64,000 bases of DNA, from NCBI GenBank assembly GCA_003149635.1, contig QCWI01000012.1, forward strand, positions 62,001 through 126,000, written 5' to 3'. The position numbers were made by a program, and so were the translations under genes. Below the pieces are notes generated by a model, which did no database searches, was not told where the DNA came from, and worked only from the letters and a program-made list of their open reading frames with translations. Positions 15,244 through 64,000 of the stretch are shown one piece after another. Each line of letters starts with the position of its first letter. Positions within the stretch are counted from its first letter, which is position 1. Source of the DNA: Fluviicola sp. XM-24bin1. Its GTDB lineage: Bacteria; Bacteroidota; Bacteroidia; Flavobacteriales_D; Crocinitomicaceae.

Positions 15244-18200
15244 ATGAAGCATTTATTGACGTTTATTTTTCTTGCCTTCATTTTTACGAATGTTTCCGCG
15301 CAAATCAGGCCCGAGAACGGTTTGGCGCCATCGGAAGCATCGTCGTACGCCTTGACAAATGCCACGGTGTATGTTGCTCCAGGCGAAGTGATGCAGCACG
15401 CAACTTTGATTATCAAGGACGGTCGAATCGTAGAAATTGGCAACAAACCATTGATGAAAATCCCGAAAGATGCGGTTGAAATTGATTGCAAGGGAAAGGT
15501 GATTTTACCCTCGTTCATCGATTTGAACTCAACGATCGGTATGCCAGAAGTGGAACGCCCAAAATCGAAAATTCGAGAAGGAGCGGTTCACTGGAATTAC
15601 TCCATACATCCTGAAATGGATGCGGCATCGATGTACTCGTTTGATGGAAAAGGAACCGATGCCCTGGTATCGAAAGGATTCGGATTTGCAGTTACTCGAA
15701 CCGACAATGGCGTAGCGCAGGGAATGGGAACATTGGTTGCTACCAGCGAATCTGAAGAAGCAAGATTGACGGCATCAAATACGCCTTCGTACTTCTCATT
15801 ATCAAGAGGAAAAACGCCTCAGGAATATCCATCATCGCAAATGGGATCGATTGCGTTGTTGCGTCAGGCTTTTTACGATGCCAAATGGTACGATGACAAC
15901 CGAGACGAACTGAATTTGTCCTACGAAGCTTTATTGGAGCAGCAAGAGGGACTGATGCTTTTCAAGATTAAAGATGATTTGGAATTGCTTCGAGCGGCGA
16001 AAATTGCCAAGGAGTTCAACTTCGAATTCGTGTACTTGGGCTCTGGAGAAGAATATCAATCCATTCCGGAAATTGCAGCCATCAACCCGACAATTGTACT
16101 TCCTTTGGATTACCCCGTTGCGTATGACGTGCAGAACCCATACGTTGCTCGACAGATTCCGTTAAGCGATTTGAAGCACTGGGAAATGGCACCATCCAAC
16201 GCACGAATCTTGCTAGAAAATGGTGTTATCATTTGTTTCACTGGAAAAGATATGAAAGCCAAAGACTTCTGGAGCAATCTGCGCAAAACTATTGCTCATG
16301 GTGTATCTGAGGAAGACATTTTAAAAGCATTGACGACGAATCCCGCTGAGATTTTAGGAATGTCCGAAGATCTCGGAACATTGGAAGCGGGTAAATGGGC
16401 CAGCTTCACGATTTACGATAACAATCCACTTGCAGGCCCTGCAAAAATTTTGGAAGCATGGTCGATGGGAGAGCGCGATGTGAAGCATGTGATTAACGAT
16501 GTCAGTCAAGTTACCGGAGAATACTCCATCTCTTTGGAAGGAAAAAGCTACGCCATTGAACTTAAAGAGCAAGAAGGAAAGCTCAAAGGAACTTTGACGT
16601 ATGAGATCGAAGAAGAAGATTTGACTCGAGACACGACAACGAAACTTTCGGCAGACTTTACTGAGAACAACATCACCTTCCAATTCAATATTCACAATCA
16701 GGACATGGACGGAAGTGTAAGCATGAGAGGAAAGTACAATTCGCGCTTGCATGTATTTGAAGGGGAGGCTTTAATACCTGATGGAAGTTGGGTCAAATGG
16801 TCGGCAATCCGAAGTAAAAAGGGCGAAAGTAAGAAAGAAGATAATCCATCCATAACCATGGCGGATACCGCAAATTATACTTGGTTCCCGAACATGGCCT
16901 ACGGATTTGATACGCTTCCGGAACAATTGCCAATCATTATTCGAAATGCGACGCTCTGGACGAACGAGGCCGAAGGAATTTTAGAAAATGCAACCATTGT
17001 AATTGAAGATGGAAAGATTACTTATGTTGGCACCGACAAAGGCCCTCAAATAAACAACGCAATTGTTATCGACGCTGAAGGCAAGCACGTTACTTCTGGA
17101 ATTATCGATGAGCATTCGCACATCGCCATCTCGAAGGGTGTAAACGAAGGAGGGCAATCGATAAGTGCTGAGGTGAGTATCGGACATGTTGTAAACCCAC
17201 AGGATATTAATATTTACCGTCAACTGGCAGGAGGAGTTACTGCCGCTCAATTGCTTCATGGATCGGCTAACCCAATTGGAGGGCAATCGGCATTGATCAA
17301 ATTAAAATGGGGCGGAACGGCTGAGGACATGTTAATCGATGACGCTCCAGGATTTATCAAATTTGCCTTGGGTGAGAACGTAAAACGATCGAACTGGGGA
17401 AGCGGCGATCGATTCCCACAAACACGAATGGGTGTTGAGCAGGTCTTCTATGATGGATTTCACCGAGCAAAAGCTTACGAAGCAGAATGGGAAGCCTATC
17501 GAAACAGCGGAAAAACAGAACCACGCCTTGATTTGGAACTGGAAGCATTGGTGCAGATTCTCAATGAAGAGCGCTTCATCTCGTGTCATTCATACGTACA
17601 ATCGGAAATCAACATGTTGATGCACGTTACGGATTCCATGGGCTTCCGTGTGAATACGTTTACCCACATTTTGGAAGGTTATAAAGTGGCTGACAAAATG
17701 GTGGAACACGGTGCGGGAGGATCTACTTTCTCGGATTGGTGGGCGTATAAGTACGAAGTCAACGATGCCATTCCATACAATGCGGCTCTTATGAACGAGC
17801 AAGGTGTTGTTGTGGCCATCAACTCTGATGACGCCGAGATGGGACGCCGATTGAATCAAGAAGCGGCAAAAGGTGTGAAATACGGAGGCATGAGCGAGGA
17901 AGAAGCCTGGAAAATGGTGACCTTGAATCCTGCAAAATTATTACACCTTGACGACCAAATGGGAAGCTTGAAAGTTGGTAAGGATGCTGACATTGTGATC
18001 TGGACGGCAAACCCTCTTTCTATCATGGCGAAGGTTGAAATAACTATGATTGATGGCGTGATTCTATATGACTCCAAAGAAGACGCCGAAAAACGCAAAG
18101 AAAATCAAGCCGAGAAGGCACGAATCATTTCCAAGATGCTGGCAGACAATCAGGCCGGAGGGAAAAAGCGTGCATTCATTAAACGTAAGAAAGGACATTA

Positions 18201-55213: not shown

Positions 55214-55729
55214 ATGAAAGCAGTAAAAGCGAAAGACACCTTATCCATCACTACGAAAGTGGTACTCCCTAACGACACGAACACTCTTGGAAATCTTTTC
55301 GGTGGTGAGTTATTGGCTTGGATGGATGTGATTGCAAGTGTTGCTGCGCACCGTCATTGTAAGCGTGTGGTTGTAACTGCGGCTGTGAACAATGTTTCAT
55401 TTCAGTCATCTATTGCACAAGCATCTATTGTGACGCTTGAAGCGAAAGTTTCCCGAGCTTTCACATCTTCGATGGAGATTTTCGTGGATGTTTTCGTGGA
55501 AGACCACTTAACTGGACAACGCATTAAATCGAATGAGGCTATCTACACTTTTGTAGCAGTGGATCAAAACGGTGGGCCGATTGCTGTTCCAGAATTGATT
55601 CCAGAAACGGAGGAAGAAATTGAGCGTTTCAACGGGGCATTGCGTCGTAAGCAGCTAAGTTTGATTTTGGCTGGAAAGATGAAACCTACCGAAGCAACAG
55701 AATTGCGTAAACTGTTTATGGGGGAGTAG
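55214..55729 (+). CDS. Acyl-CoA thioesterase, hotdog fold
   Basis: A 171-residue protein of the YciA/BACH-like acyl-CoA thioesterase family. The core is NTLGNLFGGELLAWMDVIASVAAHRHCKR with the catalytic-region Asp, then VTAAVNNVSFQSSI and KVSRAFTSSMEIFVDVFV; the second half (IKSNEAIYTFVAVDQNGGP) matches the single-hotdog type. It should release fatty acids from CoA in the cytoplasm, adjusting CoA pools. Flanked by purine-rich repeats on both sides. Confidence 0.9.
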   Translation: MKAVKAKDTLSITTKVVLPNDTNTLGNLFGGELLAWMDVIASVAAHRHCKRVVVTAAVNNVSFQSSIAQASIVTLEAKVSRAFTSSMEIFVDVFVEDHLTGQRIKSNEAIYTFVAVDQNGGPIAVPELIPETEEEIERFNGALRRKQLSLILAGKMKPTEATELRKLFMGE

Positions 55730-55841: not shown

Positions 55842-56330
55842 TTAGTCGAAGTATTTCAAATTCAATCGACCGGCTAGTTTTTGAGCCACTTCGCTCGCTT
55901 CAGCTTTCGTATCGTACTTCTTTAAAATGCGCTTTCCTCGCAATCGATTACCGAACATGGTGACCGAATGATAATTATTCGAAATGATGGTGGAGTTCGA
56001 AGAGCGTCCGTACACTTGAGCAGATTCCAGTAATGGCATCGCGGTTACGCACATGTATTTATCCAAAGGATACTTCTTTCCTATTTTGATAAAACCAAAG
56101 TGCATGCTGTAATCATGAACGGTGTTCTGCTCCTCATTGATTTCTACAATCTGTTGCTGGGTCAAGACAAATATATTCAACAACAAAAGTGCCGCTCCAA
56201 TGTAAATGATGTCGGAAAAAATCATGAACGCCGACGCTGCGCTCACCACAATCGCGATGACTTTAATATTGGGTGGTAAGGTATTTCCGCTTTTAAAGGC
56301 AAGACTGATAGGATTGTCAAGTGATTCCAT
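55842..56330 (-). CDS. Small membrane protein with two helices
   Basis: A 162-residue protein. Two hydrophobic helices (VIAIVVSAASAFMIFSDIIY and the next GAALLLLNIFVL) close to the N-terminus form a hairpin; after them comes a soluble part of about 100 residues (QIVEINEEQNTVHDYSMHFG, KYPLDKYMCVTAMPLLES). I know similar proteins only as uncharacterised. It lies 12 bases downstream of the glycosyltransferase 9 gene and is probably in the same unit. Confidence 0.68.
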   Translation of the reverse strand: MESLDNPISLAFKSGNTLPPNIKVIAIVVSAASAFMIFSDIIYIGAALLLLNIFVLTQQQIVEINEEQNTVHDYSMHFGFIKIGKKYPLDKYMCVTAMPLLESAQVYGRSSNSTIISNNYHSVTMFGNRLRGKRILKKYDTKAEASEVAQKLAGRLNLKYFD

Positions 56331-57858: not shown

Positions 57859-57889
57859 TTGCCAAGTACACTAGAAAAATCTACTTTTG
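57859..57889 (+). promoter_or_regulatory. Promoter of the membrane pyrophosphatase gene
   Basis: TTG (57859-57861) and TACTTTTG (57882-57889) are 20 bases apart, matching the Bacteroidota promoter pattern. Because a TTG codon at 57887 lies inside the -7 box, the start of the protein must be the ATG at 57920. Confidence 0.75.
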
Positions 57890-57919
57890 CCCCCTGTTTT
57901 AACAAACCTTTATTACAAA

Positions 57920-60460
57920 ATGGGAGCTAATTTAATTTATGTGCCAATCGGATTGGCGGTTATCGGATTGATTTTCATGTTGATCAAAATGTCTTGGGTG
58001 AAGAAACAAAACCCAGGAAATGAGCGCATGCAAGAAATCTCGAAGAGCATTAAACAAGGTGCAATGGCATTCTTGAGTGCTGAGTATCGCTTGTTGGCGA
58101 TCTTCGTAGTAATCGCATCGGGAGCATTATTTGGAATTTCAGCAGTTGTAGAAACAACAGAGTGGGTAATTGTACCGGCATTTATCATCGGTGCCATCTT
58201 CTCAGCAATTGCAGGTAATATTGGTATGCGCGTTGCCACTGAAGCTAACGCTCGTACTACAGAAGCAGCCCGAACAAGCTTGCCAAAAGCACTTCAGGTT
58301 TCTTTTGGAGGTGGAACAGTAATGGGATTGGGAGTTGCCGGATTGGCAGTTTTGGGTCTTGCATTGTTCTTCTTAGTGTTCATGAAAATGTTCCTTACTG
58401 ACGGTGGAAACTTCTACAACGAAATGACGGTTGTATTGGAAGCATTGGCAGGGTTCTCATTGGGAGCTGAGTCTATTGCCTTGTTCGCACGTGTTGGTGG
58501 AGGTATTTACACAAAAGCTGCCGACGTTGGAGCTGACCTTGTAGGTAAAGTAGAAGCAGGAATTCCTGAAGATGATCCACGTAACCCGGCAACTATCGCC
58601 GATAACGTAGGTGATAACGTAGGTGACGTTGCAGGTATGGGAGCCGATTTATTTGGTTCTTATGTAGCGACAGTATTGGCATCTATGGTATTGGGTAACT
58701 ACATTATCCGCGATATGATCATGGCGAACGGTGAGTTCACAGATGATTTCGGCGGAATGGGACCAATCTTGCTTCCTGTAATGATTGCAGGTGTTGGTAT
58801 CGTTGCTTCCATCATTGGTACGTTCTTGATTCGTATCAAAGACAACAACGCAAAAGAAAAAGAAGTACAGCGTGCTTTGAACGTTGGTAATATTACTTCT
58901 ATCGTATTGACAGTAATTGCATGTTTCTTCCTTGTACAGTGGATGCTTCCTGAAACAATTAAAATGAAATTGTTCGGAGTTGACGAAGCAGTAAGTATCT
59001 CCTCGATGAATGTATTCTACGCAACTTTGGTAGGATTGGGAGTTGGATACTTGATCTCGGCATTTACTGAGTACTACACAGCACTTGGAAAGAAACCAGT
59101 ATTGGATATTGTACAGAACTCATCAACTGGTGCTGCTACCAACATTATTGCTGGATTGGCAACAGGGATGATTTCAACGTTCTCTTCAGTAATCTTGTTC
59201 GCAGCAGCAATCTGGGGATCTTACGCATTGGCTGGATTCTACGGAGTAGCGATCGCAGCATCAGCAATGATGGCAACTACAGCAATGCAGTTGGCTATTG
59301 ACGCCTTCGGACCAATTGCAGATAACGCAGGAGGTGTTGCTGAGATGTCTGAACTTCCTGAAGAAGTACGTCAGCGTACGGACATCTTGGATTCGGTTGG
59401 TAACACAACTGCAGCAGTAGGTAAAGGATTCGCGATTGCATCAGCAGCATTGACAGCATTGGCATTGTTCGCAGCGTACGTAACGTTTACGGGAATTGAA
59501 GGAATTAACATCTTTAAAGCGCCAGTATTGGCTGCCTTGTTCATCGGAGGTATGATTCCGGTTGTATTCTCTGCATTGGCTATGAAATCTGTTGGTAAAG
59601 CAGCGATGGCCATGGTAAAAGAAGTACGTCGCCAGTTCAAAGAGATTCCAGGGATTATGGAAGGAACTGGAAAACCAGAGTACGATAAATGTGTTGAGAT
59701 CTCTACACAAGCTTCATTGAAAGAAATGATGTTGCCAGGAGCCTTGACTATCGTTACTCCTTTGTTGATTGGTTTGGGAACTGGATTGATTTCAGGAGAC
59801 TGGCCATTAGCAGCTGAGGTACTTGGAGGTTACATGGCAGGTGTAGCTGTTTCCGGTGTACTTTGGGCAATCTTCCAGAATAACGCGGGAGGTGCTTGGG
59901 ACAACGCTAAGAAATCTTTCGAGGCTGGAGTTATGATTGACGGAGAAATGACTTACAAAGGTTCTGAGGCGCACAAAGCAGCAGTAACTGGAGATACAGT
60001 TGGAGATCCATTCAAAGATACTTCTGGTCCATCAATGAACATCTTGATCAAATTGACATGTTTGGTAGGATTGGTAATCGCTCCGATTTTGGGAGACGGT
60101 CACGGATCTGATGCAGCAGTAGCAGGACACGGCGTGAAAAAAGAATGCTGCGTTGAGAAAAAAGGAGATCACTGCAAGAAAGATGCTCACTGTGACAAAA
60201 AAGATGGTACATGTGCAATGGATCCTGCTTGTGAAGCAAAATGCGACATGAGCAAAATGAAGAACATGACCAAAGAAGAATGCAAAGCATACTGTGAAGA
60301 GCAAGGATGTTCTAAAAAGTGTACCGAAGCATGTTTGGCGCATTACGATGAAGATGGAAACTTCAAATGTGGTGAAGAAAAGTGTCATGAAGGCAAATGT
60401 GAAGAAGGCAAGTGCGCCGAGGGTAAATGTGCCGGAGGTGACTCTAAAGAAGAGAAATAA
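57920..60460 (+). CDS. hppA: Membrane ion-pumping pyrophosphatase with Cys-rich tail
   Basis: An 846-residue, about 16-helix pump that uses pyrophosphate to move H+ or Na+ out of the cytoplasm. Family signatures: [19 protein letters not shown], the acidic loop [18 protein letters not shown] and [18 protein letters not shown]; the Ala at the GNTTA position marks the K+-dependent branch, which includes both H+ and Na+ pumps. After the last helix ([13 protein letters not shown]) a 110-residue hydrophilic tail (about 737-846) carries 17 Cys and several His. Other members lack this, so the tail is odd. ATG 57920 is supported by the promoter at 57859-57889. Confidence 0.95.
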
Positions 60461-61408: not shown

Positions 61409-62308
61409 ATGAAATTCATTTGTACGTCTGTATTCATTCTTTCCGCTTACTTTCTCTTCGGGCAGCAAGAAACGATCTTCAATCACTTCTGGAACAATCA
61501 AACGCATTTTAATCCAGCGTTTGCAGGTTTGGAATACCGCCATCAAGCTGGAGCATTATACAGAAGTCAATGGCAAAACGTGAACGGTGCTCCGGAAGAC
61601 ATTTACGGGTTTTACAATGCACGTTTGATAGATCATCTGGGTGTAGGGATTAACTTCAATTACGGTACCATAGGATTTCGTACTTCCTATAACATCGCGA
61701 TTCCAATAGCATACCATCTTCAGTTGAATGACAACGCTGAACTTTCTCTTGGAGCAGCAATCGCGTTCAACAATGAAGGTTTTGACCCAAATTTTATTCC
61801 ACCAGAGACATTCAACGACCCAAACCTCCAGGTATCCGACGAACAGCACTTATTGACCAACCTCGGAATTGCCTTTAAAAATGAAAACATTCGAACAGGT
61901 GTCAGTATTCGCAACCTCACGTTGAATCAAATTAACGGAAACGACGACTTTCAACTCGCTCGTCACATGTACGGAATGTTTCAATACAGGTTCGATATTC
62001 CCGGTTGGTTACCAGCACCCATAGCGATTTACGCGGAAGCGAATTTCGGTACAGATTTTGTGTTTTCGACGTATCAAACCAATGCACGCGTGCAATACAA
62101 CAATCAATATTCCTTAATTGCTGGCTACGATTTTCACAATGGGCCCTTGTTCGGGTTAGGATATGATCTTCTTGAAAAATTCCGACTGATGTATTCAGCC
62201 ACTTTGGTTATCAACCAGCTTTCTCCAATAACCGATTTTACGCACGAGTTCTCATTGGTGTATCAATTACCGTTCGATCATCAAAAACCGATCCCACTGA
62301 ATCCATAA
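61409..62308 (+). CDS. PorP/SprF family outer-membrane protein
   Basis: A 299-residue outer-membrane barrel protein of the PorP/SprF family, linked to the T9SS and gliding. Signal peptide MKFICTSVFILSAYFLFGQ, then the hallmark FNHFWNNQTHFNPAFAGLE and, in the middle, LGVGINFNYGTIGFRTSYN; it ends with LVYQLPFDHQ. The canonical members sit beside the secreted protein they assist. Here a second PorP/SprF follows after 24 bases and then a GldM-like lipoprotein gene. Confidence 0.9.
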   Translation: MKFICTSVFILSAYFLFGQQETIFNHFWNNQTHFNPAFAGLEYRHQAGALYRSQWQNVNGAPEDIYGFYNARLIDHLGVGINFNYGTIGFRTSYNIAIPIAYHLQLNDNAELSLGAAIAFNNEGFDPNFIPPETFNDPNLQVSDEQHLLTNLGIAFKNENIRTGVSIRNLTLNQINGNDDFQLARHMYGMFQYRFDIPGWLPAPIAIYAEANFGTDFVFSTYQTNARVQYNNQYSLIAGYDFHNGPLFGLGYDLLEKFRLMYSATLVINQLSPITDFTHEFSLVYQLPFDHQKPIPLNP

Positions 62309-62332
62309 GATTCAACCAATACAACCCGACCT

Positions 62333-63193
62333 ATGAGAACTTTCGTCGCATTATTATCCCTTTTGTTCGTAATCTCATCTTACGCACAGATCGAAACTGT
62401 TCCACATCAATTCTGGAACAATCTTTCGCACTTCAACCCATCGTATGCAGGTTTACAGCATGAAAAACAAGCTGGAATCATGTACGAGGGGTTCCGAAAA
62501 GAGACCTTTCAACATGACTATCAAATCTTCTATAACCAGAAATTGAAGAAGAACTTTGGAATTGGGATCAATGCCAACCATCGGGCGAGCTGGGATCAAA
62601 CATCAGAAATATCAATTCCTGTGAGTTACAATTGGAATATTTCCGGGCAAAACCATCTTGCCATCGGATTGGCGCCGTCCTTTCGTAATTACAATCCGGC
62701 TGAGTTTTATCTCGATTCCGCTGGAAACATACAAAGTCCATCCCGCAACTATTTCCAAACGCATGCTGGCGTTACCTACCATTTCAAAAATGTGTATGCC
62801 GGATTCGGTGTTCGTAATTTGCACTTGAGAAGCTGGGGAGATTTAGAAGCAGGTACATGGGAGCCTCACCTTTATGGGAATTTTTCGTTTGAAACACCCG
62901 TGGGGTCGCGCTCTGTGGAGAACCATCCGCATACCCTGATTTTGTCCGCTTTATACACCTATGTCAATGGATTCAACCGAGTGGATTTAAACGCACGAAT
63001 GCAATTCAAAAATGGCTTAAACGCCTTTATTGGTGGACGTGTTGGCAGTGGATTTACCATGGGCACCGGTTGGGATTTTTTCCAGAAATTGCGTTGCTTG
63101 TATTCGATCTCGTGGCAGCGAAATAATTTGAACAACGGCAACAATGTATCCCATGAATTCTCGGTTGTTTATCATGTGACACAAGACGATTGA
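62333..63193 (+). CDS. PorP/SprF family outer-membrane protein, copy 2
   Basis: A 286-residue paralogue of the preceding protein. Signal peptide MRTFVALLSLLFVISSYAQ, then the matching hallmark HQFWNNLSHFNPSYAGLQ, FGIGINANHRASWDQTSEI and GTGWDFFQKLRCLYS near the end. The two are clearly homologous but diverged in the middle. Both are in one orientation with the next gene, so they probably form a unit; the small distances fit this. Confidence 0.9.
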   Translation: MRTFVALLSLLFVISSYAQIETVPHQFWNNLSHFNPSYAGLQHEKQAGIMYEGFRKETFQHDYQIFYNQKLKKNFGIGINANHRASWDQTSEISIPVSYNWNISGQNHLAIGLAPSFRNYNPAEFYLDSAGNIQSPSRNYFQTHAGVTYHFKNVYAGFGVRNLHLRSWGDLEAGTWEPHLYGNFSFETPVGSRSVENHPHTLILSALYTYVNGFNRVDLNARMQFKNGLNAFIGGRVGSGFTMGTGWDFFQKLRCLYSISWQRNNLNNGNNVSHEFSVVYHVTQDD

Positions 63194-63240
63194 CGTTACC
63201 AATTCGTTTTGACGTATTTTCATGGTAAACTACATCACTT

Positions 63241-64000
63241 ATGAAACGAATCTGGCCCCAACTTTTATTCTTAGGAATCTTTCTTTTCTCATGCACCTGA
63301 AGAGGAATCAGCAGCCAACGATGTATTGGACGCAATGCAATTCGAGAATTACTACCAAAATTCACGAAGTCTCTACAATGACGGTAACGGCTATTTACTC
63401 ACGTTGAAGGGAGAAAAGGGAGCTGAGCTTGCCACGCATGGTATGAATGGACGCACCAAAAAAATCAGCATGCTGGACAGGCAAATCTCCTGTATGGAGG
63501 ATATTGACGCCAGCTACAAAAAAATCATCTCAGAAATTCACAAAGAGAAAAGTAAGATCTTGGAGAAAATTGGTTCTCAATCTGCTCTAGGAGACCTTGA
63601 TCCCCAATGGATCTACCCAGCTCGGATCGATGCAACTAAAATCAAAGAAGATAGTGACGATGCTTTCGATTCAAAGAAGATTTTGAGCAGTATAATTAAA
63701 TACAGAGATGAGGTGGTCAAGCTATGCACGAATTCACATTACCGATTTGTTGATGGCTCTTTAAAACAGGATAAAGATCATGCCGTTGGAACCATAAAAA
63801 AAGACGTAATTTCTGATCCAGCCAGCGACTCAAAATATTTCTATCAAGTGCTGGAAGATGTATTTATCGATGACAAGGAAACGTTATTTGAAATCTTAGT
63901 GACTTTAACCCCGAGAAAAGGAGAAGACCAAAAATTATCAGCCCATCAAGCCTTGCATTTCTTATCAGTGCTAGAATCCCGAATATTGATGGCAAGAAAA
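63241..64000 (+). CDS. GldM-like lipoprotein, frameshifted and cut by window end
   Basis: The ATG at 63241 opens a lipoprotein signal (MKRIWPQLLFLGIFLFSC) but meets TGA after 19 codons. One base further the frame is open to the window end: removing the T at 63298 joins FSCT to EEESAANDVLDAMQ. The continued protein (at least 240 residues) has a helix-rich layout like the first domain of GldM/PorM: IDASYKKIISEIHKEKSKI, then KILSSIIKYRDEVVKLC and SAHQALHFLSVLESRILM. GldM proper begins with a membrane helix, so a lipobox is unusual. Either the frame was broken by mutation or one base was mis-called. Without correction translation could begin only at ATG 63335, with no signal. Confidence 0.6.

Follow-up and report, generated by a model that had tools for sequence, protein, structure and literature searches.

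The shaft of the T9SS rotary motor is GldM/PorM (TIGR03517; Pfam GldM_1st, GldM_2nd, GldM_3rd and GldM_4th), which has been described as a single chain through which the torque of the motor is passed across from the inner membrane to the ring in the outer membrane. In the available portion of the structural report, the GldM dimer is made by D1 (helix 1) and swapped D2 strands, the D2-D3 junction is the looser joint of the structure, and D4 meets the PorN-PorK complex in the authors' model (PMC5790014). PorE, as presented in the available part of its source, is an outer-membrane lipoprotein that binds PorP and is built from TPR, beta-propeller, carboxypeptidase-regulatory and OmpA-like domains; in F. 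johnsoniae, six porP-like genes adjoin porE-like genes (PMC9143113). Excerpts of two further papers report an interaction between PorP and PorM (PMC9127263) and the joining of SprF to GldK through a Cys-X-Cys in the C-terminal tail (PMC12635249). Our search of the literature, with most subscription journals outside its scope, returned, among the titles listed, a paper on the normal motor but none devoted to short GldM-like proteins, which is weak evidence of novelty.

The DNA analysed here (the window) is a 64,000-nucleotide stretch of the Fluviicola sp. XM-24bin1 genome, at the 3' end of which two genes of the PorP/SprF family are followed by a short GldM-like gene. The encoded short protein resembles GldM/PorM in its D1 and D2 homology and differs from it in having, in the intact relatives, a predicted lipoprotein signal instead of the N-terminal membrane helix and in lacking D3-D4. 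The arrangement resembles that of PorE in that a lipoprotein gene lies beside a porP-like gene, but the TPR, beta-propeller, carboxypeptidase-regulatory and OmpA-like domains of PorE were not found in the GldM-like protein of the window, for which GldM_2nd was the only Pfam match. The two barrels share membership in the PorP/SprF family with the SprF/PorP-like carriers of type B cargo, from which they differ in having neither an adjoining type B tail gene nor a Cys-X-Cys.

The PorP pair and the GldM-like gene

The first barrel gene, PorP1 (61409-62308, + strand, 299 aa), matches PF11751 with E = 1.7e-39 (136.5 bits, cut-off 22.3) and TIGR03519 with 146 bits (cut-off 90.55). PorP2 (62333-63193, + strand, 286 aa) follows on the same strand after a gap of 24 nt and matches PF11751 with E = 7.3e-24 (85.2 bits, cut-off 22.3), whereas its TIGR03519 score of 82.9 bits is below the cut-off of 90.55. 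The adjacent PorP/SprF pair proposed in an earlier note on this DNA was therefore confirmed, both proteins scoring above the PF11751 cut-off. No Cys-X-Cys occurs in the last 60 residues of PorP1, PorP2 or the three PorPs of two related genomes (G025 and G018), so that a tie of the window PorPs to GldK through such a tail was rejected. A type B tail gene lies within 1 kb of 7 of the 15 PorP matches of the window genome, and none lies beside PorP1 or PorP2. Another PorP/SprF match of the same genome (L013, C5:115865-116791) contains one internal TGA; the 140-aa open frame next to it carries a type B tail, and the two are possibly another broken pair.

The third gene starts on the same strand 47 nt past PorP2, at ATG 63241. 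From this ATG, 19 codons (MKRIWPQLLFLGIFLFSCT) encode a signal peptide with a lipobox (FLFSC) that satisfies the lipobox rule, and the frame is closed by TGA 63298-63300 (feature 63241-63300, + strand). The GldM-like body (63287-64000 in the window, + strand) is in a different frame, which is open from about 63275 and has no lipobox. Contig C12 continues for 6579 bases past the window end, and when the sequence was extended (stretch L016; window position = L016 position + 60999), the body was found to run on to a stop at 64321 (L016:3322), with D1 in the window part and D2 at about 64043-64291, so that some of the GldM evidence sits past base 64000. The gene as assembled is thus broken directly past the lipobox cysteine. 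Just past the window, the gene of a tricorn-like protease (L016:3433-6639) has an in-frame TAG, and a T9SS-tailed gene after it lacks about 350 codons, with a type A tail present in the G025 version.

Comparison of the body with PF21601 (GldM_2nd) gave 24.8 bits, just above the curated cut-off of 24.4, and comparison with TIGR03517 gave E = 3.1e-8 and 32.9 bits, far under the equivalog cut-off of 180, while Pfam GldM_1st did not match the window protein. Against the GldM of the same genome (contig C6), residues 12-98 aligned with 35% identity (E = 7e-6) and residues 130-343 with 38% identity (E = 3e-23). On these profile and pairwise matches the third gene is a true GldM relative and not a mere look-alike, and the resemblance of its N-terminal part to the first GldM domain, which the earlier note had drawn from the helical layout, holds. 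Of the elements expected of a working motor protein, the D1-D2 periplasmic domains are present; the N-terminal transmembrane helix (GldL pentamer), D3-D4 and a score above the TIGR03517 cut-off are not, and in place of the helix the window frame and most relatives have a signal with lipobox.

The frame break of the window copy

Unbroken orthologs lie directly 3' of PorP2 in G025 (L053/L068, contig JANSYQ010000008.1) and in G018 (L054/L069, contig JADFAL010000085.1), and both begin with a signal peptide that ends in a lipobox, that of G018 (LLSC) having been missed by the lipobox rule and called by eye. The earlier note had placed a lipobox where GldM has its membrane helix. This part of the claim applies to most intact relatives (see below), whereas in the window copy lipobox and body lie in separate frames with a TGA between them, and appeared as one gene because the break had been bridged by eye. 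As assembled, the window copy cannot be read as a lipoprotein and, being frame-broken, is probably not made as one.

We consider it fairly probable that the break is real and reflects decay of the gene in this strain, which would be compatible with all the functional readings discussed below; otherwise, the assembly would contain a base error. Three consecutive genes that are intact in G025 are damaged in the window genome (the GldM-like gene, the tricorn-like protease and the T9SS-tailed gene), and in an audit of frame breaks between the window contig and G025:C48, 25 of 29 orthologs were scored as unbroken by script. Two of the four flagged were the T9SS-tailed and tricorn-like genes already mentioned; the other two are small (55842-56330 and 55214-55729), and their stops were taken for end or start differences; one further row of the audit arose only because the G025 gene extends past the end of the window contig, and the script scores the GldM-like gene itself as unbroken because its break falls in the signal peptide. 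Three neighbouring damaged genes among otherwise unbroken orthologs favour real local decay over an assembly error. Conversely, the body is still open for >330 codons and aligns with its orthologs at 57-58%, with dN of 0.31-0.32 and saturated dS, so that the break would be either recent or an error, and no second sequence of the window species was seen among the records, which may omit the species' own. Programmed frameshifting, judged from the sequence alone, is unlikely because neither the G025 nor the G018 ortholog has a break.

Short GldM-like genes in other genomes

Among 34 genomes of the genus, we identified 13 short GldM-like genes in 9 genomes, counting open frames <420 aa and excluding two fragments (G031:C180, at a contig end, and G002:C75, with a start like that of canonical GldM). 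Two of the 13 contain D1 only, one of them in the window genome itself (C2, L062:7810-8610), which matches the family profile with E = 1e-19 and has no Pfam match. This D1-only GldM-like lipoprotein gene lies just upstream of a large gene, which we take to be SrfB-like, presumably with RadC-like and integrase-like genes nearby. When 299 genomes were sampled from the order, at least eight further short genes were found in seven genomes of the same taxonomic family, a lower bound since at most six candidates were scored per genome; two of the eight (G127 and G192) are broken or have no proper start. The gene is thus both related to GldM and present in other genomes.

The lipobox rule was satisfied by 16 of the 19 starts examined, the G018 start being the 17th, by eye, and the remaining two (G027 C14 and G004) look like ordinary signal peptides. 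In an alignment of ten members to the pair of full-length GldM proteins from the window genome, every short protein stopped where D2 ends and lacked the canonical GldM start (MAGGKETPRQKMIGMMYLVLTALLALNVS), motor helix included. At E <= 0.01, Pfam GldM_2nd was matched by 9 of these ten and GldM_1st by 4. A profile of the ten matched PorM (7cmg, E = 5.6e-7) and GldM (7sau, E = 8.7e-4) in the PDB, whereas a single-sequence search returned three matches, none of them GldM (E = 0.49-0.79). In a structure prediction for the intact G025 protein from three sequences, mean pLDDT was 44, and ten-residue blocks across residues 281-365, mostly beta strands, reached 51-85. The sequences show that in the intact relatives a predicted lipoprotein signal replaces the motor helix and the protein ends after D2, leaving a putative lipid-anchored D1-D2.

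Identity of the short proteins to GldM is 18-44%. In a tree of 54 rows, from which three fragments (L106, L107 and L032) and a 663-codon frame (L097) were excluded, 18 of 19 short genes fell outside the canonical GldM clade (support 88/99). This tree neither establishes a single origin for them nor speaks against one, as the branches are long and long branches meet.

The PorP2-lipoprotein arrangement and candidate roles

The gap between PorP2 and the lipoprotein gene is 47 nt in the window genome, 52 nt in G025 and 47 nt in G018, on the same strand in each. PorP1 is present in two of these three genomes, the window genome and G025 (49% identity), with an opposite-strand thioredoxin-like gene between PorP1 and PorP2 in G025; no PorP1 was seen at the G018 locus. 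Among the 34 genus genomes, PorP2 orthologs with 55-60% identity are confined to the window genome, G025 and G018, and the matches in G003 and G008 have 29% identity only. The flanks are syntenic across the three genomes, and PorP1, PorP2 and the lipoprotein are 49-57% identical to the window proteins vs. 70-94% for the flanking genes, excluding the degraded T9SS-tailed gene. By GldM identity to the window genome, the G025/G018 pair (87% and 81%) are its closest kin in the genus, the next genome being at 71%, and the gene order is therefore one lineage-specific arrangement.

A PorP gene adjoins 3 of the 21 short GldM-like genes, all within this one sister clade. Around the other 18, a search with a profile of eight window-genome PorPs (PorP1 and PorP2 included) detected no PorP in the surrounding DNA examined, some stretches of which are short (e.g., L057 and L110). 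In 15 of the genomes with short genes, none of the Pfam PorP matches listed was as near as 20 kb to any short gene of genomes other than these three; the matches listed extend down to ~133 bits and also miss the known PorP2 of G025 and G018. Thus, the survey of PorP/SprF neighbourhoods recovered the lipoprotein gene after PorP2 in both close relatives, whereas the accessory PorP/SprF and GldM-lipoprotein module suggested in the earlier note does not hold as a general one: with 18 of 21 genes lacking a detected PorP, the family overall needs no neighbouring PorP.

The reading that we favour, tentatively, is that the lipoprotein is a motor-free, outer-membrane-anchored derivative of GldM that serves as a periplasmic partner of PorP, placed like the PorE lipoproteins. 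The gene descends from gldM, and the D1-D2 lipoprotein would have lost both the helix turned by GldL and the D4 that meets the PorK/N ring, as read from the anatomy of the published PorM model. Because the contacts of the GldM dimer are carried by D1 and D2, the lipoprotein is probably a dimer; it would thus still dimerise, with the drive gone at both ends. In the window clade its gene is probably co-transcribed with PorP2. As PorE is a partner of PorP, and PorP has been reported to interact with PorM, we propose a PorE-like PorP2 partner that would be periplasmic, tethered to the outer membrane and located where PorE is found by other PorPs. Such a partner might hold or stabilise the barrel, or might link PorP2 to the GldK/N track or to GldM. 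In favour of a PorP partner we count the GldM D1-D2 homology with nothing beyond it and the lipobox in 16 of 19 starts, the position of PorP2 directly upstream in three genomes together with the restriction of strong PorP2 orthologs to the same three of 34, and the joint divergence of PorP1, PorP2 and the lipoprotein. Against it, no PorP was found near the other 18 of 21 short genes and the window copy is frame-broken; moreover, the adjacency may be one inherited accident, given the synteny of the flanks and the close kinship of the three genomes, each other's nearest in the genus by GldM identity. If the lipoprotein does bind PorP, PorP barrels would have a second kind of lipoprotein partner besides PorE.

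A doubtful alternative is an envelope lipoprotein, perhaps surface exposed, that has no present link to the T9SS and merely reuses the GldM D1-D2 fold. The neighbourhood is not constant across the short-gene family, as such a protein would allow, whereas the PorP adjacency in the window clade argues against it. Genes of T9SS cargo are not enriched nearby: with mechanical gene calls (longest non-overlapping ORFs of at least 80 aa, locus L102 counted twice, and the match near the window gene being an 80-aa remnant of the degraded gene), a tail gene was found within three genes of 11 of the 21 short genes vs. 39% of 215 background genes, and adjacent to 4 of 21 vs. 16%. A link to cargo genes was accordingly rejected; in an earlier set of large neighbours picked by hand, 8 of 10 had a T9SS tail, an apparent link from an unfair sample. 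Some members are acidic after the lipid cysteine (CASDED, CSSNED) and resemble Bacteroidetes export signals as given in the available part of PMC5080379, but at positions +2 to +7, at least two acidic residues are found in 8 of 16 short genes vs. 18 of 36 for the remaining lipoproteins encoded on the same DNA. No excess is seen, and these residues lend no separate support to surface export.

An unlikely possibility is that the D1-D2 lipoprotein is a decoy or regulator of the motor, pairing with full-length GldM through the dimer surfaces and so lowering or tuning the number of working motors, the PorP adjacency being incidental. Both elements of the GldM dimer in the available portion of PMC5790014, D1 (helix 1) and the swapped D2 strands, are kept. 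A GldM match occurs in all 34 genus genomes, and two full-length GldM genes of the window genome lie on contig C6 (L063:8968-10734 and 15643-17400), in a single cluster with a gldK-like, a gldL-like and two gldN-like genes, named by reading and position. However, identities of 18-44% make mixed strand-swapped dimers doubtful, and the outer membrane, where a lipoprotein would be expected to reside, is distant from the motor.

The remaining reading draws on separate D3-D4 genes. In the window genome, C5 encodes a 207-aa protein (L064:7333-7956, C5:213333-213956) with a signal peptide, judged by eye, and D3-D4 only (GldM_3rd, E = 2e-10; local D3-D4 profile, E = 4e-43). Short D3-D4 genes were counted in about 18 of the 34 genus genomes, the window genome included, as open frames <350 aa; few starts were inspected, and the count includes a possible contig-end piece (G002) and a weak, stop-bearing match (G030). 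They occur in 7 of the 9 genomes with short D1(-D2) genes vs. 11 of the 25 others, an association that is not strong. GldM_4th (PF12080) proved too weak a probe, with matches in 11 of the 34 genomes but none in the window genome despite its full-length GldM. In G148, two D3-D4-only proteins (local profile E = 5e-22 and 3e-24, Pfam silent) are encoded one gene downstream of a GldL_N-GldM_1st fusion.

With genes for D1-D2 alone and for D3-D4 alone, GldM is reused in two parts, split at the D2-D3 hinge, and together with the G148 fusion the D3-D4 genes show piecemeal use of its parts across the family. It is conceivable, though improbable in our view, that the two halves of the shaft, exported as lipid-anchored D1-D2 and secreted D3-D4, form alone or together a motor-free, GldM-like outer-membrane scaffold for particular PorP-type carriers, a static adaptor assembled from rotary-motor components. 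That the halves can exist apart, divided at the hinge of the crystal structure, is shown by the separate D1-D2 lipoproteins and D3-D4 proteins, which offer natural constructs with which to ask what each half does.

A GldL-like membrane part is fused to a GldM D1-like part in L108:5878-7332 (484 aa) and L109:6954-8423 (489 aa); Pfam detects GldL_N in both and GldM_1st in L108 alone, the D1 of L109 coming from the local profile. Upstream of the PorP pair, the protein encoded at 57887-60460, which we take to be proton-pumping-pyrophosphatase-like, has a long Cys-rich, charged C-terminal tail, and a similar tail is present in G025.
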